A DNA stretch of 64,000 bases from Alistipes sp. (GTDB taxonomy: Bacteria; Bacteroidota; Bacteroidia; Bacteroidales; Rikenellaceae), in contig JAGBTQ010000001.1 of NCBI GenBank assembly GCA_017631275.1, positions 1-64,000 of the forward strand. Direction: 5' to 3'. A program made the translations under genes and the position numbers. The notes under the pieces were generated by a model, which saw only the letters and a program-made list of their open reading frames with translations, had not been told where the DNA came from and did not search any database. Below are positions 11,357 through 28,199 of the stretch, piece after piece. Within the stretch, counting starts at the first letter, position 1, and the number at the start of each line of letters is the position of its first letter.

Positions 11357-11945
11357 AGGGTGCAAGCGTGTGTTTACCAAGTTGGTGAAAGATACGCTAT
11401 GGGAGGATTTTAGGTTTCCCGAAGGAGGAAGTGTAGATAGACAGCTCGAAAGTTGTTTTGATAAGCTCTCTTTATCGTTCAGTATCAGTTATAATAGGTT
11501 GGTAGACTTCTGTGTTTGCCAAGTCAGTTCTATGTCTGATTACGATAGGAAATATAGATTTCGTTGGAATATAACTCACTCTTTTGGCGACAAAGCCATA
11601 AGCCGCTATATGAATTATAGCACTCGAATGAGAGCACACGATGATAAGTGGCTAAGTAGTTTTGGTGCCTCTCGGAGCAAATATGTGTCGATGATCGAGG
11701 ATTGTAGTAAACATCCGCTAGCCATATTTATCTATCCTGAATATGAGGAACACACTAAACGCAGATGGATGTCTAATGAATTGGGATATCTGATATGTGG
11801 AACATCCACATTGATGTGGACTCCGTTTTCACCTGTTTGTCAGATGTGTACAAATGCTCCGCTATGCGAGAAACGCACCGCACATGTTCACCATGAGCTA
11901 TATAGAATACGCTGCGAGGCGTGGCGAAAACAACAGAAAGAGTAA
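11334..11945 (+). CDS. Phage protein with C-terminal cysteine cluster
   Basis: A 203-residue protein with no recognised family. The last 45 residues hold CQMC, then C seven residues on, a HVHH and a final C, which could bind zinc or an Fe-S cluster. It is located between the sigma-like gene and the helicase, overlapping the former, and its TAA shares a base with the helicase ATG. A role as helicase loader or replication accessory is possible by position only. Confidence 0.5.
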   Translation: MEKKEWIEGCKRVFTKLVKDTLWEDFRFPEGGSVDRQLESCFDKLSLSFSISYNRLVDFCVCQVSSMSDYDRKYRFRWNITHSFGDKAISRYMNYSTRMRAHDDKWLSSFGASRSKYVSMIEDCSKHPLAIFIYPEYEEHTKRRWMSNELGYLICGTSTLMWTPFSPVCQMCTNAPLCEKRTAHVHHELYRIRCEAWRKQQKE

Positions 11946-13303
11946 TGGATAATAATATATCACCACTGAGTACCGAATTTCTCTACGAACTGTATGCGAC
12001 AGCACTCAGGCAGGATCAGTTATGCGCAATCGTGTCACAGCATATGCGTAGCGAGTACCTGCCTGACCAGTCGTTTCAGCGTATTCAGAAGGTGATCGCA
12101 TCGCACTATCATACCTATAAGCATACCCCTTCTTATGCAATACTTTCGCAGACATTCCACGATGATGTAGATGCATTGGAACTTATTGATACCTTCCGAG
12201 AATATGATGAAGGCCAGAGCATTGAGGTGATGACCGATATGCTGGAATCATATATCAAGGGAGTTCGTCTACAAAAGGTATATGCAGAGGTTGGAAAACT
12301 ATATAATGACAATCAGCAGGAGAAGGCTGAAGATGTGCTTCGTAAGTATGCTGAGTGGGTTGCGGGGTTTACGCTTAAGAGTACCTCATTTGTGAATGTT
12401 GCCGAGACATTCATAGAACGATATGAGGCTAACAAGCGTAGAGAAATCGAAGAGGAGCAGTCTGGTATTGCAAAAGTTGTTCGCTTCTATATTCCGTTTT
12501 TAGATGCTCTGAATGGTGGTCGTAACCTGCGTGGCCAGCTTACCTGCTTTCTCGCATCAACAGGTGTGGGTAAATCGCATATCGCAAAATGGATTGGTGT
12601 CCGCGCTAATATCGATGATAACCTCAATGTGCTTCACTTCCAGTTAGAGGGCTCCGAGGAGGAGGCTTTGAATGCATATTCAGGTGGACTTATATCGAAG
12701 AATGCCTACTACTATGAAAAGGGTAAGATTCATGATGCCGAGATGAAACACTACCAGAAGATGATAGAATCTTATGGTGGTAGTATTGTGGTCAGAAGTT
12801 ATCCTCGATTCAATGCTCAGATATCAACCCTCGATATCAAGAACGGAATATCTGAGTACCGCAAGTTGGAAGGACATAGTCCCGATATAGTCATTATCGA
12901 CTCTATGGATTTGCTTACAGATGCTACGCGCAGAAACTGGGGAGCCGAACACGAGAGAGCAAAGCGTATAGCCGTAGCCAATGACCTTAAAGACCTTGCT
13001 GCGGACGAGAAGGTGTGGATGGTTGTGACATATCAATCTACCATTGAGGATAGAGATTGGCTAAATAACGAGAGTAATGTGCTGACCGAGTATAACTGCT
13101 CAGAGGCAAAGGGCCTTGCACGACCTTGTACTCATCTTATCTCGCTGAATCAATCCTCTGCCGAGCGTAAGGAGAATGTGATGCGATTGCATATCGCCAA
13201 GAGTCGATTCTTCAAGAAAGGAGCAACAATTAAGATTGCAACTGACTATGATAATGAGGTATTCTACGATAGCCAGCGAACAGATAGTTTGATGATGGAA
13301 TAA
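11945..13303 (+). CDS. DnaB-like replicative helicase
   Basis: A RecA-fold helicase of 452 residues counted from the ATG at 11945, which overlaps the upstream TAA; a longer frame from GTG 11921 exists but is less likely. The N-terminal 150 residues are helical, like DnaB/gp41. The RecA domain shows Walker A STGVGKS (about residue 210), Walker B VIIDSMDLL (about 310) and a VTYQST block (about 355) typical of DnaB-family helicases. It should unwind the fork together with the primase encoded 54 nt downstream. Confidence 0.88.
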   Translation: MDNNISPLSTEFLYELYATALRQDQLCAIVSQHMRSEYLPDQSFQRIQKVIASHYHTYKHTPSYAILSQTFHDDVDALELIDTFREYDEGQSIEVMTDMLESYIKGVRLQKVYAEVGKLYNDNQQEKAEDVLRKYAEWVAGFTLKSTSFVNVAETFIERYEANKRREIEEEQSGIAKVVRFYIPFLDALNGGRNLRGQLTCFLASTGVGKSHIAKWIGVRANIDDNLNVLHFQLEGSEEEALNAYSGGLISKNAYYYEKGKIHDAEMKHYQKMIESYGGSIVVRSYPRFNAQISTLDIKNGISEYRKLEGHSPDIVIIDSMDLLTDATRRNWGAEHERAKRIAVANDLKDLAADEKVWMVVTYQSTIEDRDWLNNESNVLTEYNCSEAKGLARPCTHLISLNQSSAERKENVMRLHIAKSRFFKKGATIKIATDYDNEVFYDSQRTDSLMME

Positions 13304-13357: not shown

Positions 13358-14392
13358 ATGGATTTATCAACTAAGGAATATCAGCATTTGGTGCAGGAGA
13401 TAGCACGCGAGACGGGCGCAAAGCGTGACGGTACGGGTAAGAACCTTATCGTGCCGCGTTGCCCCTTCTGTGGCAAGTCGGGCGGTAAGTTCGGTATCTA
13501 CATTGGTCCGGAGACTGCTCGCCGTGAGCCCTTTATGGCTCACTGCTTCTCGTGTGGCAAGTCTACGCGCACTCTCGGACAACTCCTGGAAGCCATAGGT
13601 CGTATGGACCTGATGGTTACTCCTACGGCAGATATTACTGCCCCCTTGCAGTTTGTTTTGGGTGTGGAGCCGGAGGAGATTGACGATATGTTGACCATAA
13701 CCGAGTTGCCGGACTTCTACAAGCGTACATTCAGCCACCAATACCTCAAAGAGCGTGGTTTCACCTATGATGACTACGACTATTTCCCAGTGGGCGTAAC
13801 CAATCGTCTCAATCCTCGCTTTGAGGATTATGTGATATTTCCCATCATTGACAACGGGGAAAATGTGGGCTTCGTGGGCCGTCATACCTGGTCAAAGAGC
13901 GATATCGATGCACATAACCGCAAGGTCAAGTACAATGGCGGCTTCAAGATACTGCGTTATCGCAACTCTGTCAATAACGACTTCTCCAAACTACTATATA
14001 ACTACGATGCTATTCACGAGGGCGAGACCGATACGGTTATCCTCGTGGAGGGCATCTTTGATGTTATAGCCCTGACCCGTAAGCTGGAACTCTACGATAA
14101 TCCCAGAGTAGCTGTTGTAGCAACTTTCGGAAAGAAGATCTCCGATGTCCAGGTCTATAAACTCCAATGCAAGCGAGTTCAGACGGTGATTGTCGGCTAC
14201 GATGGTGATGCTGTCGAGCCTGTCAAGAAGGCCGCCAGCAGACTCGCCAAGTACTTCAATGTCTTTGTGGCCAACATCGCAGATGCCCATAAGGACTGGG
14301 ACGAAATGAGCGTGGAAGAGATATTCGACATCTTTGCTCAACGCCTTCAATCTCCCTCAAACTTCAAACTACGAAAGGTTCAAGAGTTATGA
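13358..14392 (+). CDS. DnaG-like primase (zinc finger plus TOPRIM)
   Basis: A 344-residue protein. An N-terminal zinc finger has Cys35-x2-Cys38 and Cys63-x2-Cys66. The catalytic TOPRIM part contains LVEGIFDVIAL (about 228-238, with the conserved Glu) and the VGYDGDAV motif (about 283-290, Asp-x-Asp). It lacks the C-terminal helicase-binding domain of bacterial DnaG. It makes RNA primers for the phage replisome. Its stop overlaps the ATG of the first polymerase half by 4 nt. Confidence 0.88.
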   Translation: MDLSTKEYQHLVQEIARETGAKRDGTGKNLIVPRCPFCGKSGGKFGIYIGPETARREPFMAHCFSCGKSTRTLGQLLEAIGRMDLMVTPTADITAPLQFVLGVEPEEIDDMLTITELPDFYKRTFSHQYLKERGFTYDDYDYFPVGVTNRLNPRFEDYVIFPIIDNGENVGFVGRHTWSKSDIDAHNRKVKYNGGFKILRYRNSVNNDFSKLLYNYDAIHEGETDTVILVEGIFDVIALTRKLELYDNPRVAVVATFGKKISDVQVYKLQCKRVQTVIVGYDGDAVEPVKKAASRLAKYFNVFVANIADAHKDWDEMSVEEIFDIFAQRLQSPSNFKLRKVQEL

Positions 14393-16140
14393 TGCAGGAA
14401 ATAATTCAGTGGCTCGATGCCCAAAATATAGACTACACCACCATTGACAATGAGGTCGTGGAAATCCCGAACTTTGGCAAGATGTTTCTTGCTGACCTGT
14501 CGGGAGTGGAATCCATCTTCAAGAGCAAAGATGGAGAAGTAAGGTTCAACCTTATGGGAAACCCACAGGAGTTGCAGGACGAGGGAATCTTCTATGTGGC
14601 GTTCCCATTTGGCAACAACTGGTATTACTATGATCTGCGAGAAGAGTTTCGCTTCAATATCCTAAAGCATATAGGCAAGCCAACGTCTCCGAAACATAAT
14701 ATCCCGTTTGTCAATCTCGGTGTCCATACGCCTTTTGAGCTGCTTAACGCATCGGGTTCGATAGATGGTCTATGTCGTAAGGCAAAGTGGCTTGGGCATA
14801 CAGCAGTGGGCATTTGTGACCGCAACACAATGGCCGCCACGCTCAACCTGCAAAAGGAGTGTGCGAAGGCAGGGCTTAAACCCGTGTTTGGCTATACTCT
14901 TACAATGCTGCATAACGAAACAAAGGTCGAGATAAAGATATACGCTCTCAGCAACAAGGGGCTGCATAACCTGCTCAATATTCAACGAGAAGTAATGGTT
15001 AACTCCGAAGATGGCGTCATCGAGTACTCGAGGCTATTTCTCTATGCTGAGGGGTGTGCCATAGTCTTCGCCACCCGCTCGGCGTATTGGATGACGGAGA
15101 ATCCTCGCCATGTCGAGCGAATGAAGGAGCGGTTTGATGCCGTCTACTATCAGGTCGATGGCAATGAGTATAAAGCTGACCGTATAGACCGTGAGAAGTT
15201 AGCCGCACTGAAACACTACTTCGATAATTGTTACGATACAGTAAACGATTCGTTTACCGTAGAGCCTATTCTTTTAGCAGACAGTTACTACATAGACCGT
15301 GATGATGCGAAGTCGAAGATCGTGCTTAACAAGATTGCTACGGGTGCTGCCCACGAACAGAGCGAGGAGCAATACTTCAAAAGTGTAGATGAGCATTACA
15401 ACACTCTGCGACCTCTATTCTCTGATAGGTGGGACTTTGACAGACTCTTCGAGAGGATGTGCCGACATACGGTGGATATTGCCGAGCGTGCCGAGGCCGC
15501 CTTTGAGACGGGTAAGATGTTTATGCCCGAATATATGATGCGTCCCGAGGAACAGGAACGCTATGGCGATAGACGCACGATGTTTCTTCGCCTGCTCGAT
15601 GAGGGGCTTGCGGAGAAGATCTCGGAGACGAAGCACCAAGTTTACAGAGAGCGATTAGATGAGGAAGTGTATATCATTGAATCGACTGACAATGTGGATT
15701 ACTTCCTTGTGCAGTGGGATATGGTGCGTGAGGCAAAACGCCGAGGCATTGCAACGGGTATCGGTCGTGGCTCGGCAGGAGGCTCGCTCGTATCATACCT
15801 ACTGGGGATTACCTCTATCGACCCGATAAAGTATGACCTAATCTTCTCCCGTTTCCTTGTCCCGGAGCGATGTGGACTTAGTTGGAAAGATAAACTGACT
15901 GTCCTTGCTCCGGATATACCCATACAGCGAGGTGTGGAGTACATAGAGGTTGAGATTGAAAATACGATATATATGCTGTATCCCGAAGCCAAGTTACGCA
16001 TTGAGCGTGATGGCAAGGAGATGACTATTACAGCGGATAAATTGAGTTGTGGCGATGACATCCTATTAGACCGCCGAGATTGCTTGTGGAACTTAAAGGA
16101 GATAGCCAATGAACAACTACGAACTTCTGAGCCCATATAA
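14389..16140 (+). CDS. Phage DNA polymerase III alpha, N-terminal half with Hint-like tail
   Basis: 583 residues. Residues about 105-170 form a PHP domain with decayed metal sites: NLGVHT where HLHVHS is usual, and CDRNT where TDHGN is usual. The palm block GRGSAGGSLVSYLLGI (about 462-477) is intact. Similarity to DnaE ends at FSRFLVPER (R494). From Cys495 an extra 89 residues follow that are absent from the chromosomal DnaE in this window. They have an N-intein/Hint-like pattern: initial Cys, DKLTV, then KLRIERDGKEMTITADKL and GDDIL. The TxxH block is not clearly present. The remainder of the polymerase is encoded at 17405-19579. Confidence 0.85.
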   Translation: MMQEIIQWLDAQNIDYTTIDNEVVEIPNFGKMFLADLSGVESIFKSKDGEVRFNLMGNPQELQDEGIFYVAFPFGNNWYYYDLREEFRFNILKHIGKPTSPKHNIPFVNLGVHTPFELLNASGSIDGLCRKAKWLGHTAVGICDRNTMAATLNLQKECAKAGLKPVFGYTLTMLHNETKVEIKIYALSNKGLHNLLNIQREVMVNSEDGVIEYSRLFLYAEGCAIVFATRSAYWMTENPRHVERMKERFDAVYYQVDGNEYKADRIDREKLAALKHYFDNCYDTVNDSFTVEPILLADSYYIDRDDAKSKIVLNKIATGAAHEQSEEQYFKSVDEHYNTLRPLFSDRWDFDRLFERMCRHTVDIAERAEAAFETGKMFMPEYMMRPEEQERYGDRRTMFLRLLDEGLAEKISETKHQVYRERLDEEVYIIESTDNVDYFLVQWDMVREAKRRGIATGIGRGSAGGSLVSYLLGITSIDPIKYDLIFSRFLVPERCGLSWKDKLTVLAPDIPIQRGVEYIEVEIENTIYMLYPEAKLRIERDGKEMTITADKLSCGDDILLDRRDCLWNLKEIANEQLRTSEPI

Positions 16141-16900
16141 CGGCTGCGACCTCTACCAAGGCGATGCCCTCGATGTGCTTCCTATGCTTGCCGAGCAAGG
16201 TATCAAGGCAGATATGATTCTCACAGACCCTCCTTACGGCACTACTCACTGCCGTTGGGATTCGCCCATAGATATAACGAAGATGTGGCAGGTGCTTCGT
16301 GGCGTTACGATGCCATTGACACCCATTCTGCTCTTTTGTCAGCAGCCATTTACCAGCGTGCTTGGAGCTTCAAACCTCAAGCAACTACGCTACTCGTGGG
16401 TGTGGGAGAAGACACAGCCTACGGGCTTTCTCAATGCCAAGCGTATGCCAATGAAGGCCCACGAAGATATACTCGTATTCTACGACAGACTGCCAATATA
16501 CAACCCCATAAAGACCGATGGTCATAAACGCAAGGTTGTTATGGCGGCACACCAGCGTAAGTGTAACGCCGGGGAGATATACCATAAGCACGACAACTAT
16601 CGGGACTATATCTCCACAGAGCGCTATCCACGCAGTGTCATCAAGTTCAAGACCGATAAGCAGACATCGTGTCTGCACGCAGCACAGAAGCCTGTGGCAC
16701 TGCTTGAGTACCTTATCCGCACCTACACCAACGAGGGCGATTTGGTGATCGACTTCGCTATGGGTAGTGGCAGTACCGCCATTGCCTGTCGAAATACAGG
16801 ACGCCGATTTATCGGAGTCGAGATTCAGAGAGACATATTTCAAACCGCATTAAAGCGAATAACAGATGAGCACAACCCAGGAGATCTGGGTGGACATTGA
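16109..16900 (+). CDS. Beta-class DNA adenine methyltransferase inside split dnaE
   Basis: A 263-residue N6-adenine or N4-cytosine methyltransferase. Motif IV DPPYG lies at about residues 40-44 and the SAM-binding FAMGSGS motif near 215-221, the order of the beta class. There is no restriction partner. It starts within the last 32 bases of the first dnaE half and its end overlaps the HNH gene by 35 nt, so the cassette is coding with no spacer. It may modify phage DNA against host restriction or protect the site cut by the adjacent HNH enzyme. The latter is inference. Confidence 0.88.
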   Translation: MNNYELLSPYNGCDLYQGDALDVLPMLAEQGIKADMILTDPPYGTTHCRWDSPIDITKMWQVLRGVTMPLTPILLFCQQPFTSVLGASNLKQLRYSWVWEKTQPTGFLNAKRMPMKAHEDILVFYDRLPIYNPIKTDGHKRKVVMAAHQRKCNAGEIYHKHDNYRDYISTERYPRSVIKFKTDKQTSCLHAAQKPVALLEYLIRTYTNEGDLVIDFAMGSGSTAIACRNTGRRFIGVEIQRDIFQTALKRITDEHNPGDLGGH

Positions 16901-17408
16901 AAACTATGAAGGGTGTTATCAAGTCAGTAACAAAGGTCGTATCAAGAGCCTTGAAAGGGAGGTTACTTCGGGCGGCATTACACGCACGCAGCCCGAGCGC
17001 ATACTAACGCATTGGTGTGGCAAGACCTCGCTCTATGATTGCGTGAGATTATACAAGAACGGCAACGGGGAGAAGTTCTCCGTGCACCGCATTGTGGCAG
17101 CACATTTCCTCGATGACTGGGATCCCGAGTTGGAGGTGAACCACATAGATGGCAATCGCTACAATAATGCTGTGGAGAACCTTGAGATGTGTACTCATCA
17201 GCGCAATATGGAGCACGCCATAGCTAATGACCTCAAAAACGACTATGGCGAGAAGAGCCGTAATGCAAAACTAACCAACGCACAGGCAGAGCGAATACGC
17301 GAACGCTACTATGCAGGTGGCGTGACGCAGTTGGAATTGGCGATTGAGTATGGTGTATCGCACCAGACCGTGAGTTGCATTGTGCGACATAAAAAGTATT
17401 TCAGATGA
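16866..17408 (+). CDS. NUMOD4/HNH homing-type endonuclease inside split dnaE
   Basis: 180 residues. The N-terminus has a NUMOD4 pattern (EIWVDIENYEGCYQVSNKGRI, here shortened: IWVDI, YEGCYQVS, GRIKSL). The HNH part has VHRIVAAHF, then VNHIDGNRYNN and NLEMCTHQRN. The last 45 residues form a helix-turn-helix (GGVTQLELAIEYGVSHQTV-like) for DNA recognition. This domain set is typical of free-standing or intron/intein-associated homing enzymes. Its stop overlaps the ATG of the second dnaE half. It likely moved the whole cassette into the conserved polymerase gene. Confidence 0.88.
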   Translation: MSTTQEIWVDIENYEGCYQVSNKGRIKSLEREVTSGGITRTQPERILTHWCGKTSLYDCVRLYKNGNGEKFSVHRIVAAHFLDDWDPELEVNHIDGNRYNNAVENLEMCTHQRNMEHAIANDLKNDYGEKSRNAKLTNAQAERIRERYYAGGVTQLELAIEYGVSHQTVSCIVRHKKYFR

Positions 17409-19579
17409 TAGTAACAAGAGTAAAACGAAGACGAGCAACAGCCCCGATGAAGGTGATTGACTCGTTTGTGGATAAGGGACTTGTCGAGGGTGGGCACGCC
17501 TCACTTCCTGATATCGATGTCGATTATGCATCGGACCGCCGTCAGGAGATGAAGGACTACCTTGAACAACGATACAATGTCGGAGGTCGTCAGCGTGTGT
17601 TCTCGGCAGGAACATTTACTACGCTAAAACTCAAAGCGGCACTCAAAGATGTGGCGCGAGTACACCGTGTGCCACACGGTACGGTAAACTACATAACGGC
17701 GATGCTCGATGATGGTGCCGACTGGACGGGACTATTCAAGATAGCCGTTACCAATCGTAAGGTCTACGACTTTATACAGACCTATCCCGAAGTGATTGAG
17801 GATGTACGAGTATTGCTCGGTCAACCAAAGGCGGCATCTGTGCACGCCTCTGCAATTATCGTTACCCCCGAAAAGCGTGATGGTAAGGAGGCAGATTGCT
17901 TTGACTTTCTGCCTATACGCAAGATGGACGGAGCGTTGGTATCGGAGTTTGATGGTTACTCTGTCGATGAGATTGGACTGCTTAAAGAGGATGTGCTGGC
18001 AACAAAGGAGTTGGCAAAACTCAGTGCCACCATAAACCTCGTAAATGAGCATTACAATCAGCAGCTGACCATAGAGATGATAACAAGCGAGATGCTCGAT
18101 GATGAGAAGACCTATCGGATACTCTCGGAGGGCAATACCCAGAATGTCTTTCAGTTCTCCTCACCGGGCATCACACGCTTTATTCAGGATGTGCAGCCCA
18201 ACTGCATAGAGGATCTGATTGCCATAAATGCTCTCTTTCGACCTGCTACACTCGATATCGGGGCAACCGATGACTATGTTCGTTACCGCCGAGGTGATGT
18301 GGCTCCGGTCTATAACTTCGGATGTTATGAGGCAACGAAGAACACCTACGGCATTATGGTCTATCAGGAGCAGTTTATGTCGGTGGCTCATACGCTCGGC
18401 GGCTTTGACCTCGGCAAGACCGACTATCTTCGTAAGGCTATCGGTAAGAAGAAAGCCGACCTTATGGCCTCGCTCAAAAACGACTTCATTGCGGGTGCTA
18501 TAAAGAATGGTTGTCCACCTTATGAGGCCGAGGAGATATGGGGTAAGATAGAGACTGCAGGTAAATACTCCTTCAACCGCTCTCACGCCGCAGCATACGC
18601 CCTTACAGCCTTCTGCGGAGCGTGGCTCAAGGCGAACTATCCGACAGCATTCTATACCGTGGCATTGCAATGGGCAGATGATAAGGAGATGCCGGCGCTT
18701 ATGTCGGAGATGGAGCGATGCTCGGTGGCGAAGATTGTTCCTCCCGACATCAATCACTCTACGGTGGAGTTCTTTACGGACTACAAGACAAATGAGATTT
18801 ATTGGTCACTTAGTAGAATTAAGTTCGTAGGCATTAGGACGGCAGAGTATATCGTTAAAGAGCGTTTACGCGGTGATTTCAGAGGTGTTGAAGACTTTAT
18901 TGAACGCATCTTTTATCGGAAGTTGAAGGGTTTTCGTGCAAGGCATTGGGATACGATAGATTCGACAGATAATAACCGAGTTCCAGTAAATACAAGGCAC
19001 TTGAAAAATATGATTTTAGCAGGATGCTTCGATAGAGTTGAAAATGTCAAGTCTGTAACTGAACGATATTCTATACTTAAAAGAGCTGCTGCTGCATTAA
19101 GACTTGAGTTGACAGATAGTGATGCGCCGGCAGAACTTCGTGATAAGCATTACTACTGGTCTCAGCAGCAGATTGCTGTCTCGGGTATCGGAATGATAGA
19201 CTATCGTCGCATATTCGACAACTCCCCTGACAGAGCATCGGTTAAGGGTAAAGCCTCATACATTCTACTTGCAGATGTGTTACGGAGAGAAAATGAAAAG
19301 CGTCGTGCAGCTATATGTGCTACCGTATCGGAATACTCTGAACATAGCTATAAAGACCAGGAAACTGGGATGAGCAAACGATTTGCCAAGTTATTGCTTT
19401 CTCAAAATGGTCAAACCGTGGAATGTGTGCTGTGGGATGAGTTTTACAAATCACACAAATCGGAACTTACACAAATTAGTGGAAAGATAATTATTCTCAC
19501 TGCGATGATACGATATAGCCATTATTCGGGCTGTAACACATTGCAGTCATATCATAATTCACTTCTATTCATTCAGTAA
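17405..19579 (+). CDS. Phage DNA polymerase III alpha, C-terminal half
   Basis: 724 residues. After a 32-residue head that does not resemble DnaE, the sequence resumes exactly at SLPDIDVDY (from S33) with the two catalytic palm aspartates, then fingers (FQFSSPGITRFIQDV, YQEQFMSVAHTLGGF, FNRSHAAAYALTAFCGAW), a helix-hairpin-helix region and an OB-fold near the C-terminus. The head ends GLVEGGHA just before S33. Joined at R494/S33 the two halves give about 1,186 residues, a normal DnaE length. Whether the halves are spliced or simply associate is not known. A DEDD exonuclease gene follows within 2 nt. Confidence 0.88.
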   Translation: MIVTRVKRRRATAPMKVIDSFVDKGLVEGGHASLPDIDVDYASDRRQEMKDYLEQRYNVGGRQRVFSAGTFTTLKLKAALKDVARVHRVPHGTVNYITAMLDDGADWTGLFKIAVTNRKVYDFIQTYPEVIEDVRVLLGQPKAASVHASAIIVTPEKRDGKEADCFDFLPIRKMDGALVSEFDGYSVDEIGLLKEDVLATKELAKLSATINLVNEHYNQQLTIEMITSEMLDDEKTYRILSEGNTQNVFQFSSPGITRFIQDVQPNCIEDLIAINALFRPATLDIGATDDYVRYRRGDVAPVYNFGCYEATKNTYGIMVYQEQFMSVAHTLGGFDLGKTDYLRKAIGKKKADLMASLKNDFIAGAIKNGCPPYEAEEIWGKIETAGKYSFNRSHAAAYALTAFCGAWLKANYPTAFYTVALQWADDKEMPALMSEMERCSVAKIVPPDINHSTVEFFTDYKTNEIYWSLSRIKFVGIRTAEYIVKERLRGDFRGVEDFIERIFYRKLKGFRARHWDTIDSTDNNRVPVNTRHLKNMILAGCFDRVENVKSVTERYSILKRAAAALRLELTDSDAPAELRDKHYYWSQQQIAVSGIGMIDYRRIFDNSPDRASVKGKASYILLADVLRRENEKRRAAICATVSEYSEHSYKDQETGMSKRFAKLLLSQNGQTVECVLWDEFYKSHKSELTQISGKIIILTAMIRYSHYSGCNTLQSYHNSLLFIQ

Positions 19580-19580
19580 T

Positions 19581-20345
19581 ATGGCTCCAAAGACAGAACA
19601 AAAAATATATGTAGGCATCGGACTCGACTTTGAGACAGGTGGTCTTGATCCGCAGACTTGTGCCTGCACCCAGATAGCAGTACAAGCGGTAAGGCTCGAC
19701 TCTTGGCAGGTGATTGACCAGTATCAGGCTTACATCTATCCCTATACCAGGAAATTTGATGGGTTGAGCGTAAAGAAAGTGCTTAAGACTCGACGAGAAT
19801 TGGAGAAGGAAGAGAACACCCCCATGCTCTATGAGGATAAGGCATTGGATTATTCGGCTATAACAATGGATATGTTGCGCAAACAAGGAGTTAACATCAA
19901 GCAGGTTGCAGCTGAAATCATAGCCTTTGCCAAACGGAATACCATATCTGTCGGTAAGCAGTGTAAGCCCTTTCTTATTGGGCAGAATATTCAGTTCGAT
20001 ATCGGCTTTTTGCAGCAGATGATGAACTATGCCGGACTTATGGAGGAGTTTGAGAAGACCTTTGCAGGAACAACAGATTACTACGGACACTTTCAGCCTC
20101 ACTATATCGATACGATTCTTATAGGTCGATTAGCTTTCGCAGCCGACAAGGAGGTAACATCATACAAATTGGAGATTGTTGCTTCGCAATTAGGCGTAGA
20201 CCTCGACGATGCTCACGATGCAGCAGCCGATGTTACAGCAACACTCGATGTGCTGGGCGTCTATACCTCACGCTTGAGAAACAACGAGGGAGCGACGATG
20301 ACAACTGGGCAACGAGATAAAACAAGAAAACATTTCAAAATATGA
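19581..20345 (+). CDS. DnaQ-like 3'-5' exonuclease (proofreading subunit)
   Basis: A DEDDh exonuclease of 254 residues: Exo I GLDFETGG (D13, E15), Exo II around IGQNIQFDIGF (about 133-143) and Exo III HDAAAD (H about 213, D about 218). The gene starts 1 nt after the stop of the polymerase half, so it is almost certainly the proofreading subunit of this phage polymerase, in place of host DnaQ. Its 3' end overlaps the next ORF by 4 nt. Confidence 0.87.
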   Translation: MAPKTEQKIYVGIGLDFETGGLDPQTCACTQIAVQAVRLDSWQVIDQYQAYIYPYTRKFDGLSVKKVLKTRRELEKEENTPMLYEDKALDYSAITMDMLRKQGVNIKQVAAEIIAFAKRNTISVGKQCKPFLIGQNIQFDIGFLQQMMNYAGLMEEFEKTFAGTTDYYGHFQPHYIDTILIGRLAFAADKEVTSYKLEIVASQLGVDLDDAHDAAADVTATLDVLGVYTSRLRNNEGATMTTGQRDKTRKHFKI

Positions 20346-22491: not shown

Positions 22492-23784
22492 TTACTTATG
22501 CAGAGTAAATTCAAATCGAAGACCACAACCAGTTCTATTGGTTGCTTCTATTAAGCCGCCGTGGAATTGGACTGCGTGTTTTACAATGGCAAGCCCGAGA
22601 CCTGTACCACCCTTTTGGCGGGAGCGACCCTTATCCACACGATAGAAGCGCTCGAAGAGGTGTGATAGGTGTTTCTGCTCAACACCCTTGCCATCATCCT
22701 CAAAGCGGATGCGGCACAACTTCTCATTGTTTTCAAGTAGCGATATATAGATGTTTCTACCCTCGGAATAGGCAATGGCATTCTCGGTTAGGTTGCGGAA
22801 AATGGAGCCAATCAACGATGGATTGCCATCAATGACAACCTCGTCATTAAAATCGCTATGGAGCATCAGGCGTTCATCTTCGGGCAGCATCTCCAACTCC
22901 TTAGCTACCTCATCAATTATATCGTTTATTACAACTCTCTCTTTGCCAATCAAGGCACTGCCATCCTCCATTCGGGTAATGAGTGAGACGTCATTAAGCA
23001 GTCTTCGAAGGCGATCGTTATGGGCATAGCATCTCTCGATAAGTCCCTGACGCTTCTCTTCGCTAAGGCTAATACCCGATAGCAGTGTTTCAAGGCATAT
23101 TTGAATGGATGCTACGGGGGTTTTCAACTCGTGGTTAATGTTATTTGTCAGTTGTCGTTTAAGGCGGGTTCGTTCTTGTTCTGCTTCGTATCGATTGACA
23201 CGCTCGATATCCTTGCCAAGTTTGCGAGTGGTAAAGTATGCCACAATGCTCATCACAAGTGTGATTGATATCATCACAACAAGGAACGACCAGTCCGCTT
23301 CAAGCAGGTCTTGCAAGGTGCCGGAATAGGGAATTGCCGTGCGTACGATTGCTCGTTCACCTCGTGTTGCAGAGTAGAAATATTCGCGGCCATCACTTGT
23401 CGATTGTCTACTGATATTATAGCCTGCGCCTTTGGTCAAGGCATCGGCTATCTCTGGTCTACCTCGGTGATTATCAAGCGAGTCGAGCGATATGGTATTG
23501 TCGTAAACAACAGCACCCGAAAGCGTGATTATTGATATTCGTAACTCATCGAAAGGCTTGTCGTGTGTCGCAATATACTCTTCAAAAGGCTCTCCATCTT
23601 CAACTGTGGTAAGCAGATGACGATTATACTGCTGCAGTTGTGCATTTAGAAATTCCGACTTATACTCTTTTTCTCGTATATATTGAAATCCGACAAAACA
23701 GAGGACCATTGTCCACGAGAAGACTATCAGTTGTAAAAAGAGTCGCTTATGATATGATATTTTAGTCTCGGAAGCCATATCCAA
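22492..23784 (-). CDS. phoR: PhoR-like sensor histidine kinase
   Basis: A 430-residue membrane kinase: TM1 at about residues 13-34, a periplasmic domain to about 165, TM2 at about 167-184, a HAMP-like linker, the phosphoacceptor NINHELKTP (H218), an N box (NLTENAIAYS), and G boxes FEDDGKGV and GGTGLGLAI. Its start overlaps the 3' end of the response-regulator gene by about 20 nt. The divergent pstSCAB operon supports a phosphate-sensing role, so PhoR is the likely identity, although the name rests on context. A start at the second in-frame ATG (23778) is equally possible. Confidence 0.85.
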   Translation of the reverse strand: MDMASETKISYHKRLFLQLIVFSWTMVLCFVGFQYIREKEYKSEFLNAQLQQYNRHLLTTVEDGEPFEEYIATHDKPFDELRISIITLSGAVVYDNTISLDSLDNHRGRPEIADALTKGAGYNISRQSTSDGREYFYSATRGERAIVRTAIPYSGTLQDLLEADWSFLVVMISITLVMSIVAYFTTRKLGKDIERVNRYEAEQERTRLKRQLTNNINHELKTPVASIQICLETLLSGISLSEEKRQGLIERCYAHNDRLRRLLNDVSLITRMEDGSALIGKERVVINDIIDEVAKELEMLPEDERLMLHSDFNDEVVIDGNPSLIGSIFRNLTENAIAYSEGRNIYISLLENNEKLCRIRFEDDGKGVEQKHLSHLFERFYRVDKGRSRQKGGTGLGLAIVKHAVQFHGGLIEATNRTGCGLRFEFTLHK

Positions 23785-24460
23785 ATCCTGAACGGGTTAC
23801 AATATACGAGCCGTAAGCACCAATCTTTGAACGCACGCGCGTAATATTTACATCAATAGTACGGTCCAACACGACCACTTCATCGCTCCATACATGGCTC
23901 AGTATCTGCTCTCGCGAGAGTATCTTTCCTCTATGAGAAACAAGGTAGACTAACAATTCAAACTCTTTTCGAGCGAGCCTCACCTCCTGCCCATCGACGG
24001 TACAACGCTTAAATTCTAAATCGAGTTGCAGTCCCTCCACTTGAAGCGTGTTCGTTTTTTCGGTAGGTGTAGCGCAAATCTTCTGACCACTTGTTCTGCG
24101 AAGGACACTCTTCACGCGAGCTATTACATTGCGGATAGTGTAGGGCTTCATAATATAATCATCTGCACCAATATTCAGTCCCATAACCATATCGTCCTCA
24201 GTATCACGGGCTGTACAGAAGATAATGGGAATATCGGCAGTGGAGATATCTGCCTTCAGCATCTTTGCCATTTTAATGCCGCTTATATCTCCCATCATTA
24301 TATCCAACAATATTAATGAATATGTTTGCAGGTTGTAGGTCAAAGCCTCCTCTGCACTAAGAGCTATATCAACATCATAGCCCTCATTTTCAAGATTGAG
24401 TTTTAGGACCTCACATAGAGTCTCCTCGTCATCTACAATCAAAATTCGTTCAACGGCCAT
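23762..24460 (-). CDS. phoB: PhoB-like OmpR-family response regulator
   Basis: 232 residues. The receiver domain has D10-D11, the phosphorylated D53 in LLLDIMMG and the lysine in IMKPYT. The C-terminal half is a winged helix with ARKEFELLVYL and the recognition helix region TIDVNITRVRSKI. It is transcribed divergently from pstS with 187 nt between, and forms an operon with the kinase gene. Regulation of the pst operon by phosphate limitation is the obvious inference. Confidence 0.87.
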   Translation of the reverse strand: MAVERILIVDDEETLCEVLKLNLENEGYDVDIALSAEEALTYNLQTYSLILLDIMMGDISGIKMAKMLKADISTADIPIIFCTARDTEDDMVMGLNIGADDYIMKPYTIRNVIARVKSVLRRTSGQKICATPTEKTNTLQVEGLQLDLEFKRCTVDGQEVRLARKEFELLVYLVSHRGKILSREQILSHVWSDEVVVLDRTIDVNITRVRSKIGAYGSYIVTRSGFGYGFRD

Positions 24461-24647
24461 ATATTGTAAATCATATTTGTGCTACAAAATTACATATAAT
24501 ATTTCACACTGTTACCGGTGCAGTCGAGATTTAATAAAAATGTAATATTTTCTTGTAGATCAGCATTTAACCAAAGCCTAACTTTTTTGAAATATTTATG
24601 AAATATTATCCCGATACTTTTGCGGTGAAATCATTAAAGAGAAATAT
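24461..24647. promoter_or_regulatory. Divergent phoB / pstS promoter region
   Basis: For pstS, TACTTTTG at 24615-24622 matches the -7 box TAnnTTTG, 26 nt before the ATG at 24648; the nearest upstream TTG (24587-24589) is rather far at 25 nt. For phoB on the minus strand, TAATTTTG reads from 24492 to 24485. The AT-rich space between could hold PhoB boxes but I see no clear repeat pair. Confidence 0.6.
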
Positions 24648-25709
24648 ATGAAAAAGATTTTTAAGTCAGTCGTGACAATGGTCGCAGCTCTTACAATGGT
24701 ATCATGCGGCGGTAATGCAACAAATGGTAGCCGTGAGGCTCAGGAGCTCTCGGGTGCTGGTGCAACATTCCCTCTCCCTTTCTACAATGTTGTCTTTGAA
24801 AAATTTGCCGAGGTAAATGGAGATGTCGTTGCGTATGGTGGTATCGGCTCGGGTGGTGGTGTTCGCAACTTGCGTGATAAGATTGTCGATTTCGCTGGTA
24901 GCGATGCCTTCCTCTCGGATAAGGAGATGGCAGAGATGGCTCCCGTGGTACACATCCCAACCTGTATGGGTGCAGTAGTGTTGGCTTACAACCTCGACGG
25001 TGTTAAGGAACTCAAACTATCGGGTGAGATTATCGCCGACATCTTTGCTGGCAATATCAAAATGTGGAACGATGAGCGTCTTGCTGCTCTCAATCCCGAT
25101 GTAAAACTCCCTAATGAGTCTATCATTCCAGTATTCCGCTCTGATGGCTCGGGTACGACATTCGTCTTTACCGATTACCTGACAAAGGTGAGCCCTATGT
25201 GGAAGGAGAAGTTTGGTGCTGGCAAGTCGGTGAACTTTCCTTCGGGTCAGGCGGCAAAGGGAAATCCTGGCGTAGCTGGCGTAATCAAGCAGACCAAGAA
25301 CTCAATCGGCTATGTAGGCTCGGAGTATGCCTTTGCACAGAAGATTCCATATGCAAAGATTAAGAATCAGCGTGGCGAGATTGTAGAACCTAACGCAGCT
25401 TCTATCTCAGCAGCAGCTTCTGGTGTAATCCCCACTGATACTCGTTGCTCAATCACCAATGCCGATGCTAAGGGTGCTTATCCTATATCAACATTCACCT
25501 GGATGATTATCTACAAGGAGCAGAACTACTCTGACCGTAGCAAAGAACAAGCCTTAGCAACACTCGACTTGTTGAAGTATATTCTCTCTGATGAGGCACA
25601 GAACATTACCTCGGAGGTGCACTATGCTCCACTTCCCGCCAAGGCAAAGGAGTTGAGTATGACTAACTTAAAAACCGTGACTTATGACGGTGTGGCAATA
25701 TTGCAATAA
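24648..25709 (+). CDS. pstS: Phosphate-binding lipoprotein PstS
   Basis: 353 residues with a lipoprotein signal (lipobox VSC, Cys20). Phosphate-binding loops are visible: GAGATFPLPFY (about 37-47), GSGGGVRNL (about 66-74) with FAGSDAFLSD, and RSDGSGTTFVF (about 165-175). It captures phosphate in the periplasm for PstCAB. It leads a four-gene operon, pstSCAB, with gaps of 9 nt or less. Confidence 0.95.
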   Translation: MKKIFKSVVTMVAALTMVSCGGNATNGSREAQELSGAGATFPLPFYNVVFEKFAEVNGDVVAYGGIGSGGGVRNLRDKIVDFAGSDAFLSDKEMAEMAPVVHIPTCMGAVVLAYNLDGVKELKLSGEIIADIFAGNIKMWNDERLAALNPDVKLPNESIIPVFRSDGSGTTFVFTDYLTKVSPMWKEKFGAGKSVNFPSGQAAKGNPGVAGVIKQTKNSIGYVGSEYAFAQKIPYAKIKNQRGEIVEPNAASISAAASGVIPTDTRCSITNADAKGAYPISTFTWMIIYKEQNYSDRSKEQALATLDLLKYILSDEAQNITSEVHYAPLPAKAKELSMTNLKTVTYDGVAILQ

Positions 25710-25718
25710 CAGATAGCT

Positions 25719-26576
25719 ATGAACGACAGACTATATAAAATCCTATTGTTCGCAGCTGCATTGATAATGCCGATAGTGTGCGGGGGTGTGGTTTACGCCC
25801 TCGTCACTGACGCTTATGAGGCATTCGAGCACTTTGGATTCTTTAAGTTTCTTACCTCGTCGGAGTGGAGCTATACCGAGGGTGCAGAGCAGTATGGAGC
25901 ATTGCCATTCATCACGGGTACGCTGATGACAACCCTTTTGGCTCTTATCTTTTGCATCCCCTTTTCTCTACCCGTTGCATTGTTCGTAGGCGAGTATTTC
26001 AAGGGAACAAAGGTGGCTGCTGTGTTGAGTACCGTAACCGACCTATTGGCGGGTATCCCCTCAATCATTTATGGTCTATGGGGCTTCTACACCTTGCGAC
26101 CAATCATTATGGCTCTCAATATCTCGCCACAAGGCTCTGGCGTACTCACCGCCTCGCTTGTCTTGGCAATTATGATTATCCCCTATGCAGCATCACTCAG
26201 TGCCGAGTTTATCAAGATGGTACCAAACGACCTAAAAGAGGGTGCATATAGCCTTGGAGCAACACGAGCCGAAGTTATCCGCAAGGTGGTATTCCCCGTT
26301 GCTGGCTCGGGTATCTTCTCATCGTATATCTTGGCTATTGGTCGTGCATTGGGCGAGACGATGACCGTGACGATGCTTATCGGCAACACGAACAACATTC
26401 CAGATTCAATCACCTCAACGGGAAACTCTATGGCATCAATCATCGCTAACCAATTTGGCGAGGCTGACGATTTGCGACTCTCATCGCTTATTGCTATCGG
26501 TCTGATTCTCTTTTTGATAACCGCAGCAATCAATATGGTGGGTAAGATGATGATTAAACGAGCAAGAATAGCGTAG
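25719..26576 (+). CDS. pstC: Phosphate ABC permease PstC
   Basis: 285 residues, six predicted membrane segments. The cytoplasmic EAA-type loop is seen as EGAYSLGATRAEVIRKVVFPVA (about 184-205; key residues E, G, A, T). It starts 9 nt after pstS and ends 1 nt before pstA. It forms the channel with PstA. Confidence 0.94.
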   Translation: MNDRLYKILLFAAALIMPIVCGGVVYALVTDAYEAFEHFGFFKFLTSSEWSYTEGAEQYGALPFITGTLMTTLLALIFCIPFSLPVALFVGEYFKGTKVAAVLSTVTDLLAGIPSIIYGLWGFYTLRPIIMALNISPQGSGVLTASLVLAIMIIPYAASLSAEFIKMVPNDLKEGAYSLGATRAEVIRKVVFPVAGSGIFSSYILAIGRALGETMTVTMLIGNTNNIPDSITSTGNSMASIIANQFGEADDLRLSSLIAIGLILFLITAAINMVGKMMIKRARIA

Positions 26577-26577
26577 T

Positions 26578-27444
26578 ATGAATAGATTAAGATTAAAAAA
26601 TCGCTTAGCAAAGGACAAGCTTATGCTATGGGGCGTATGCCTTCTTGCTGCCCTTACGGCCGTACCGCTACTTGCCATATTGGGAGAGGTGCTGTTACGT
26701 GGTTACGACCAGCTCTCGTGGTCGTTCTTTACCGAGCCTACACCTACGGCATATAAGGCAATGAAGGCTATCGAGGCGGGTGAGCCTATCCCTGGTGGTA
26801 TTGCAAATGGTATTGTCGGCACAATGATAATGCTCGGTATGGCGGTTGTTGTTGCTGTGCCTGTGGGTATCTTGTGCGGTGCATTCTTGGCAGAGAATAG
26901 CAAAAATCGCTTTGCGCAGATAGTAAGCTATTTGACTGACCTTTTGCAGGGTACGCCATCGGTGATTGTCGGTATCATTACCTACATTTGGGTTGTTGTT
27001 CCAATGAAGGGTTATTCGGCAATCGCAGGTAGTGTGGCTCTCTGTATTATGATGCTTCCGCTTATTATTCGCTCGACCGAAGAGACGCTTAAAATTCTCC
27101 CTGCATCGCTCAAAGAGGCAGGATTGGCATTGGGTGGTAACAAGGCTCGTGTGATGATGAAAGTGCAGTTGCCCGCAGCTTTCGGTGGTATCTTTACGGG
27201 TGTATTGCTCGCTATCTCACGAGTGATTGGCGAGACTGCACCGCTGATGTTTACAGCGCTTGGTTGCTCGCTTATACGCTTCTCTATCGACAAGCCTATC
27301 TCGGCAGTACCTCTGCTTATCTGGGAGTTCTTCAACGACCCCAACCTACAAGAGCTTATTTGGGGAGCATCGCTTTTCCTCCTGTTATTCGTTCTCACAT
27401 TGAATCTTACAGCTAAATATCTTGCAAAGAAATGGAATCAGTAA
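26578..27444 (+). CDS. pstA: Phosphate ABC permease PstA
   Basis: 288 residues, six membrane segments, with the coupling loop EAGLALGGNKARVMMKVQLPAA (about 179-200). The product pairs with PstC. Its 3' end overlaps pstB by 13 nt. Confidence 0.94.
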   Translation: MNRLRLKNRLAKDKLMLWGVCLLAALTAVPLLAILGEVLLRGYDQLSWSFFTEPTPTAYKAMKAIEAGEPIPGGIANGIVGTMIMLGMAVVVAVPVGILCGAFLAENSKNRFAQIVSYLTDLLQGTPSVIVGIITYIWVVVPMKGYSAIAGSVALCIMMLPLIIRSTEETLKILPASLKEAGLALGGNKARVMMKVQLPAAFGGIFTGVLLAISRVIGETAPLMFTALGCSLIRFSIDKPISAVPLLIWEFFNDPNLQELIWGASLFLLLFVLTLNLTAKYLAKKWNQ

Positions 27445-28199
27445 AACCTATATTGGAGTTTAAGAAGACTTGCGTATCATATACCAAGCAAACTATGGCT
27501 GTGAAATATGTATCGGCAGCCATTGAGCAAAATACTATCACGGCGATTATGGGACCTTCGGGCTGTGGTAAATCGACACTTTTGCGTGCCGTGAATCTTA
27601 TGCACAATCTCTATCAGAACATTCGTGTTGATGGCGAGATTTTGCTTAACGGTGAGAATATCCTATCAATGGAGCCTATCGATGTTCGCCGCCGTATAGG
27701 TATGGTCTTCCAACGCCCTGCACCCTTCCCAACGATGAGCATCTACGACAATGTTTTGTCGGGATTTGCATTGAACGGAATCAAGCTCTCCAAGGCAGAG
27801 AAAGATGCTACCGTTGAGCGTTGCTTACGTAGCGTTGCCCTTTGGGATGAGGTCAAGGATGTACTGAACAAGAAGGGAACATTCCTCTCAGGAGGTCAGC
27901 AACAGCGTCTGTGTATTGCCCGTGCCTTGGCTATGAAGCCCGATGTTCTTCTGATGGATGAGCCAACATCTGCACTCGACCCCATTGCGACAAAGCATAT
28001 CGAGGAGTTGCTATTGGAGTTGCAGAAGGAGGTTACAATCCTTATCGTGACGCACAATATGGGACAGGCAAAACGCATATCATCAAAGTCGATGTTTATG
28101 TACTTGGGCGAACTCGTTGAATATGGTGACACCGAAACGATGTTCACCAACCCATCAGACGAACGCACCAAGGCCTACCTTACAGGCAAGATGGGTTAA
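27432..28199 (+). CDS. pstB: Phosphate ABC ATPase PstB
   Basis: 255 residues with Walker A GPSGCGKST (about 37-45), Q loop VFQRPAPFP, signature LSGGQQQRL and Walker B VLLMDEPTSALDP. It powers PstCA. In most bacteria phoU follows pstB; here a strong terminator follows after 26 nt and no phoU is present nearby. Confidence 0.95.
   Translation: MESVKPILEFKKTCVSYTKQTMAVKYVSAAIEQNTITAIMGPSGCGKSTLLRAVNLMHNLYQNIRVDGEILLNGENILSMEPIDVRRRIGMVFQRPAPFPTMSIYDNVLSGFALNGIKLSKAEKDATVERCLRSVALWDEVKDVLNKKGTFLSGGQQQRLCIARALAMKPDVLLMDEPTSALDPIATKHIEELLLELQKEVTILIVTHNMGQAKRISSKSMFMYLGELVEYGDTETMFTNPSDERTKAYLTGKMG

Follow-up and report, generated by a model that had tools for sequence, protein, structure and literature searches.

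Split phage genes and the DnaE of the Alistipes prophage

The cyanobacterial split DnaE intein is actively splicing, and fractured genes with split inteins, reportedly described by Dassa et al. in 2009, are said to be broken in a conserved motif and to carry an endonuclease gene between their halves. In the window analysed here, a stretch of 64,000 nucleotides (nt) from Alistipes sp. (contig JAGBTQ010000001.1), the replicative DNA polymerase DnaE of a prophage is also encoded in two halves, between which lie a methyltransferase gene and an HNH endonuclease gene. Further related systems are the genes in pieces of T4-like phages, namely NrdA of Aeh1, gene 43 of phages 25 and 44RR, and the topoisomerase genes 39/60 of T4. 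According to the consulted part of the source, the split NrdA of Aeh1 is active, the halves of the phage 25 gene 43 polymerase co-purify and are active, a homing endonuclease occupies the gap in NrdA of Aeh1 (mobE), T4 39/60 (mobA) and phage 25 gene 43, and the endonuclease of phage 25 may have entered an already split gene (PMC2988022). The ShiLan insertion in a phage methylase is described, in the consulted part of its source, as an open insert that is neither an intein nor an intron and is tied to an HNH gene (PMC11855218).

The prophage DnaE resembles the T4-like cases, as far as the consulted part of their account extends, in that a core phage enzyme is encoded by two ORFs whose gap holds a free-standing homing endonuclease, in our case a probable one, and the late entry suggested for phage 25 is what we infer here for the genes in the gap. 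One enzyme is represented by two open reading frames (ORFs) that hold reciprocal parts and relatives have unbroken homologues, and by analogy the split DnaE may work like the T4-family enzymes. It differs from the gene 43 pieces in belonging to the C family and not the B family and in being broken at the catalytic motif, and from the T4-like genes in general in that its extra segments seem to form one shared, probably intein-derived domain, with varied cargo and in many Bacteroidota phages. With the fractured genes it shares the break in a conserved motif, an N-intein-like tail and the endonuclease gene between the halves, but here the splicing residues are missing, the head is not C-intein-like and a continuous homologue lacks these residues as well. 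The cyanobacterial gene is likewise a split DnaE with an intein-like N-part, but its site differs and it splices. ShiLan, in the part of the source consulted, is similar in that an open insert linked to an HNH gene sits in a phage gene, but there the insert itself contains the HNH, out of frame, whereas here the HNH has a frame of its own and the gene is split. Among the matches listed, no account of this split polymerase was found in titles and abstract openings of open-licence papers.

We propose that the prophage polymerase is very likely a permanent two-chain enzyme, held together without splicing by a splicing-dead domain. Within the palm, the chain is interrupted directly ahead of the catalytic PDID motif. 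N-half tail and C-half head would together make up one small beta-domain, and their association would draw the palm halves together. This domain is probably derived from a Hint element of the intein type whose catalysis was lost, and the methyltransferase, HNH, GIY-YIG and helicase genes would be later arrivals in the gap, in overlapping frames. If true, a lethal-looking break in a replicative polymerase would be stabilised by an assembly domain from the mobile element itself, and many natural two-chain DnaE enzymes would be available for testing.

The N-half (14389..16140, forward strand like all genes of the module described here, 583 aa) comprises a PHP domain (E 2e-13) and the first part of the palm (DNA_pol3_alpha, E 2.8e-30) in residues 1-494, followed by an 89-aa tail (residues 495-583 and stop, 15871..16140), a segment that at family level resembles an intein beta segment lacking the catalytic His. 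The C-half (17405..19579, 724 aa; Pfam, NCBIfam) consists of a 32-aa head (residues 1-32, 17405..17500), the catalytic palm motif, the fingers, the HHH and the OB region. The Pfam match to PF07733 stops at residue 494 (nt 15870) of the N-half and is resumed at residue 32 of the C-half, followed by the finger domain and HHH, in agreement with NCBIfam; S33 corresponds to nt 17501, and the motif SLPDIDVDY with the catalytic Asp (17501..17527) is in frame. The chromosomal DnaE of the same window is unbroken at this site and reads FLNPDRISLPDIDID. PHROG 13169, a "DNA polymerase" family of 463 residues, matches residues 110-557 of the N-half, reaching into the tail. Between the halves lie the methyltransferase gene (16109..16900, N6_N4_Mtase, E 7.8e-27) and HNH1, a NUMOD4 and HNH_3 gene (16866..17408, E 2.1e-11 and 8.8e-11) that is probably a free-standing homing endonuclease; the successive frames overlap by 32, 35 and 4 bases. 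The initial annotation, which had described this arrangement and placed the break exactly between R494 and S33, proved correct on both counts.

Tail and head of the two halves

A connection between tail and head is seen in the relative L075 (loci are denoted by L and a number), in which a single ORF runs from the N-part through a 108-residue insert into the C-part. The last 32 residues of this insert align without gaps to the head of the window; the same holds for all 18 separate heads given. In the AlphaFold2 prediction, the insert is a beta-domain that begins and ends with a long strand (strands at 49-71, 76-80, 84-89, 92-97 and 124-150 of the folded segment), the last of which is supplied by the head. 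The mean predicted local distance difference test score (pLDDT) was 88-97 in the 10-residue blocks 51-110 and 131-150, 73 in block 111-120 and 80 in block 121-130, with an alignment in which the first six head residues are misplaced in the rows shown. In the tree, L075 falls inside a group of 19 rows, all others of which are split (18 rows; support 99), and it therefore looks like a re-fusion of a split gene, although its branch is long. The initial annotation had treated both segments as parts of one element, which is borne out by their recurrence in relatives and their fusion in L075; it had also counted a continuous insert with no Hint fold against its proposal, and the continuous insert, the first half of this, now exists.

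A weak likeness of the tail to inteins was found at the level of the family. PF14890 (Intein_splicing) was the most-matched family, with 18 of 36 tails at E<=1 (best 5.4e-5), one of the 36 being the matching part of the L075 insert. In a set of 8 tails, only that of phage BS-TP1 matched it (E 0.0014, profile positions 48-94 of 155). Searched against 177,635 PDB sequences, the 8-tail profile gave 14 matches at E<=10, including four that are inteins or a polymerase chain of intein size, and the 36-tail profile gave 17, of which the top four were of this kind (E 0.009-0.09): 9hth_A (0.0091), PI-PkoII (0.047), the Pab polC intein (0.073) and TFIIB (0.093). We take 9hth_A, the TFIIB chains and MJ0781 to be inteins, partly from their length and name. 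In profile-profile comparisons with the N-parts of 17 inteins (16 collected ones and L033), the core of the 8 tails scored 31.8, with none of 200 shuffles as high and 13.1 for the reversed profile, while the untrimmed profile scored lower (21.2). The 36 tails, a slightly different set, scored 34.0, with none of 150 shuffles as high (best 17.5), 16.5 when reversed and an alignment in register over block B.

In the initial annotation, tail and head were suggested to be a split intein, of the kind found in fractured genes, whose splicing would yield a single polymerase chain. Consistent with this are the window's Cys at tail position 1 and its Ser following the head, the N-intein-like tail family, the HNH gene between the halves, and inteins matched by Pfam at another place in the C-halves of relatives (L076, E 2.6e-11, above the cut-off; L109, E 2.4e-7 with an HNH domain, and L033, E 1e-6, both under it). 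However, the block-B His is absent from all 36 tails, which have Ala (32), Thr (2) or Ser (2) at this position and no His within 5 columns; tail residue 1 is Ala in 18, Cys in 11, Met in 3, Gly in 3 and Val in 1; and the terminal Asn is absent from all 33 heads of in-frame loci (heads of out-of-frame loci were left out), which end in Gly (20), Ala (7), Ser (5) or Arg (1), preceded by His in 17. Since block-B His and terminal Asn are absent and Cys1 occurs in only 11 of 36 tails, tail and head are, judged by these residues, not a working split intein, and active splicing is highly improbable. The continuous L075 insert, which begins with Ala and ends with Arg, and the head also argue against it: compared with C-inteins, the head aligned over 9 columns (E 0.04-0.05) and 10 of 200 and 5 of 150 shuffles scored as high, so it was rejected as a C-intein. 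The leading Cys495 has thus to be given up as a conserved residue, as has trans-splicing, while the fallback of a decayed or new Hint type, or of halves joining without splicing, is favoured. The suggested profile search supported an intein-like tail, weakly, for the family (PF14890), and did so neither for the tail of the window nor for the head. A less likely but substantial alternative is that the shared domain is an ordinary beta-domain, whose likeness to inteins reflects a common beta motif also present in P-type ATPases and DrmE_C. Several observations count in its favour or against intein descent in general. DrmE_C is a second family below the threshold (15 of 36 tails, best 4.4e-4) and the only Pfam match of the L075 insert (2.4e-4), which has no intein match; E1-E2_ATPase also matches below the cut-off; calcium ATPases occur in both PDB match lists and a designed beta-barrel in one; and the head is not C-intein-like. 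The tail of the window is not among the 18 Intein_splicing matches and, searched alone, matched nothing in NCBIfam or PHROGs and nothing in Pfam below E 0.17, its head had no Pfam match better than E 0.02, and the BS-TP1 tail reached 18.9 bits at a cut-off of 35.8. As for the fold, the flanks of the L075 segment are poor (whole segment pLDDT 68.7, predicted template modelling score 0.56), and L075 is one metagenome contig with its N-terminus cut off and a frame break near the C-terminus. On the other side stand the Intein_splicing matches, the top four PDB matches and the profile-profile score far above shuffled and reversed profiles, so that descent from an intein remains the preferred reading.

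Selection bears on two further explanations. The tail is under purifying selection, with ratios of non-synonymous to synonymous rates (dN/dS) or proportions (pN/pS) below 0.5 in 13 of 13 pairs (dN/dS 0.055-0.48 where computable), and so is the head (below 0.4 in 13 of 13 pairs; dN/dS 0-0.36 where computable). Against this stand head pN/pS values of 0.72 (L075-L119) and 1.11 (L119-L111), in pairs whose palm synonymous sites are near saturation, and head constraint is therefore not clear in the L075/L119/L111 group. Both palm halves are strongly constrained (dN/dS <= 0.154 where computable, pN/pS <= 0.31 in the other pairs). This argues against a decaying gene, broken by a mobile insertion and dead in the prophage copy, as could be supposed from the location of the window in a prophage and from inserts interrupting the catalytic-motif region; as phage isolates (phiST, Larrie, BS-TP1) are split too, and so are 42 of the 43 rows in the main cluster of the tree, decay is very improbable. 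HNH and NUMOD4 genes are common in introns, and a group I or II intron would remove the insert from the RNA. This possibility is close to negligible: a search of 14300-19700 against Rfam (E<=5) gave no intron and nothing but two weak matches to snoRNAs, and the intron was rejected on this basis; tail and head are constrained protein; and from the stop of the N-half to SLPD there are only 52-98 nt in 13 of 56 split loci.

Relatives of the split polymerase and the genes in the gap

The N-half was found in 12 IMG/VR loci with an identity of 69-97%, and split halves occur in prophages of named Bacteroides genomes, one a complete B. fragilis chromosome, because of which the split is not an artefact of one assembly. 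With the whole N-half as query of phage records, Bacteroides phage BS-TP1, Cellulophaga phiST and Tenacibaculum Larrie were found, all of them split; in phiST and Larrie the two pieces are adjacent and each annotated as DNA polymerase III alpha subunit. The tail alone matched MT835494.1 (E 2e-26), with two further matches at E 0.6. The alignment search gave 64 IMG/VR loci and the best 80 of 92 genome loci, and of the latter the 19 Bacteroidales loci (L211-L229) were examined. N- and C-half share no ORF in any of the 19, L226 ending inside its tail, and the C-half was seen in 16, two of which gave no head reading: in L211 the best-scoring C-half stretch starts at residue 288, its C-half being as long as that of L076 (863 aa), and the other is L218. 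In the latter, a contig of a metagenome-assembled genome, the C-half ORF is open only from query residue 76, which may be a frame break or an error.

Only loci with both halves were counted in the table of 56 split loci, which contains near-copies (e.g., L090-L093 with L097; L096, L099, L104, L122). The tree is a quick one with long branches, from which the number of splitting events cannot be read. Unbroken polymerases with no insert were found in the relatives L028, L071, L073, L087, L127, L128 and L129 (L127 and L129 being near-copies). Bacteroides phages DAC16 (L031) and SJC03 (L037), two examined of six like phage records, encode the polymerase in an uninterrupted ORF (1277 and 1274 aa) that carries about 61 additional residues at the site of the split, which therefore seems to tolerate an insert. 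Homology of the DAC16 insert to tail plus head was dropped as unproven because the shuffle outcomes conflict: against the 36 tails none of 60 shuffles scored as high (E 0.018, 9 columns only), whereas the score was reached by 13 of 60 shuffles when the earlier tail core was the target and by 8 of 60 when the N-inteins were. No relative came up when single proteins of DAC16 and phiST were used for scanning. In Alicyclobacillus phage MMB025 (L034), the annotated DNA polymerase is also divided in two around an endonuclease gene, at another place.

The gap content of the 56 split loci was typed with six cargo queries. A Dda-like helicase was present in 24, methyltransferase and HNH1 in 8 including the window, methyltransferase, HNH1 and a second HNH gene (HNH2) in 3, helicase and HNH2 in 2, methyltransferase alone in 2, and methyltransferase with an HNH2-like gene (L111), an HNH2-like gene alone (L119) and a GIY-YIG-like gene (L072) in one each. 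L114, of the helicase class, additionally carries a GIY-YIG/NUMOD1 gene, and HNH1 is not present in L009 while related loci have it. In 14 loci no recognised gene lies between the halves, so neither methyltransferase nor HNH is required for the split, and the gap serves genes as a landing site. The short distances given above belong to 13 of these 14 cargo-free loci; for the other, L076, it is 509 nt, a figure set by the start of its best alignment.

Hairpins and stop codons in relatives, and neighbouring genes

In the window, the catalytic motif is in frame, and a hairpin followed by a stop codon at this position was found only in relatives. Five of the 56 split loci are out of frame: the head is read up to SALP or GSLP and then meets UAA, beyond which DIDVDY or DVDNDF follows in another frame. 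A perfect hairpin of 9-10 bp ends 2 nt before the UAA in all five (L004:7254-7276; L006:10542-10564; L026:9473-9495; L089:6011-6033; L123:9443-9465), and the catalytic frame picks up 7-8 nt past the CCR codon. In 11 in-frame relatives tested, the best stem within 120 nt had 4-6 bp. The scan for hairpin and stop covered 211 sequences, including overlapping loci of one contig; it also flagged L039/L051 and L129, which were dropped because their downstream frame is already open 374 and 123 codons upstream. Past the hairpin, the C-half is open for 690 codons and constrained, with pN/pS 0.036 (L089-L123) and 0.22 (L004-L026).

All five out-of-frame loci have HNH2 (178-185 codons) before the head. 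The HNH2 scan comprised the best 80 of at least 485 relatives, most of these 80 loci being used only in the hairpin scan. Among the loci whose gap gene is nearest to HNH2, 5 of 7 are out of frame, L111 and L119 (47% and 52% to HNH2) being in frame; none of the other 49 split loci is. L026 and the prophage L068 have N-halves identical up to the break, and L068 is in frame with neither HNH2 nor hairpin; L026 additionally has a shortened HNH1. A similar arrangement is found in L033 (MT835601.1), which stands outside the 56 as its N-half is mostly off the record: SLPD ending in GAT is followed by a 37-nt gap with an 11-bp hairpin (L033:1008-1033) and by GAT-ATT-GAT in another frame. The GAT codons on both sides of this gap match, whereas the other five have CCG or CCA against TCG or GCG; upstream of the L033 gap lies a GIY-YIG-like ORF, identified by eye.

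T4 gene 60 has, in the consulted part of the source, a 5' stem loop, matched GGA codons and a stop that follows the take-off codon, and its 50-nt gap may shield it from the nuclease by which the adjacent homing endonuclease is spread (PMC5009743). As far as this account goes, the five relatives share with it the out-of-frame ORFs, the stop after the take-off codon and the hairpin. Hopping or frameshifting across hairpin and stop is the somewhat favoured interpretation for the relatives. An internal start in place of hopping is unlikely, although the resumed frame is preceded, at a distance of 12 codons, by TTG or ATG in L004, L006, L026 and L123 and, at 20 codons, by TTG in L033; L089 has no such start codon. 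The gap of L089 is one base longer than that of L123, and a sequencing slip is possible. Hopping past a stop, a rare form of translation, would become testable in the five relatives, with the in-frame relatives as controls. More tentatively, we consider a scheme in which the dead intein would serve as a permanent polymerase clamp, the break would be a homing target for a cassette of HNH and hairpin-UAA, and ribosomes would hop 7-8 nt (37 nt in L033). If true, hairpin-UAA and HNH would form a second, shorter cassette of homing endonuclease gene plus bypass like mobA and gene 60 of T4.

The split polymerase of the window belongs to a replication module with a DnaB-like helicase (11921..13303, PHROG 19, E 7.1e-31) and a DNA primase (13358..14392, PHROG 47, E 9.8e-36) upstream, and a DNA polymerase exonuclease subunit directly downstream of the C-half (19581..20345, PHROG 192, E 1.5e-26). 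A gene for a terminase small subunit (E 2.6e-5) also lies downstream. Because host-type genes begin at about 22.5 kb, we read the window as starting inside the prophage, whose left end would lie off the contig of 115,264 bases. The host side is represented by genes of a two-component system and of ABC transport at 22492-28199.

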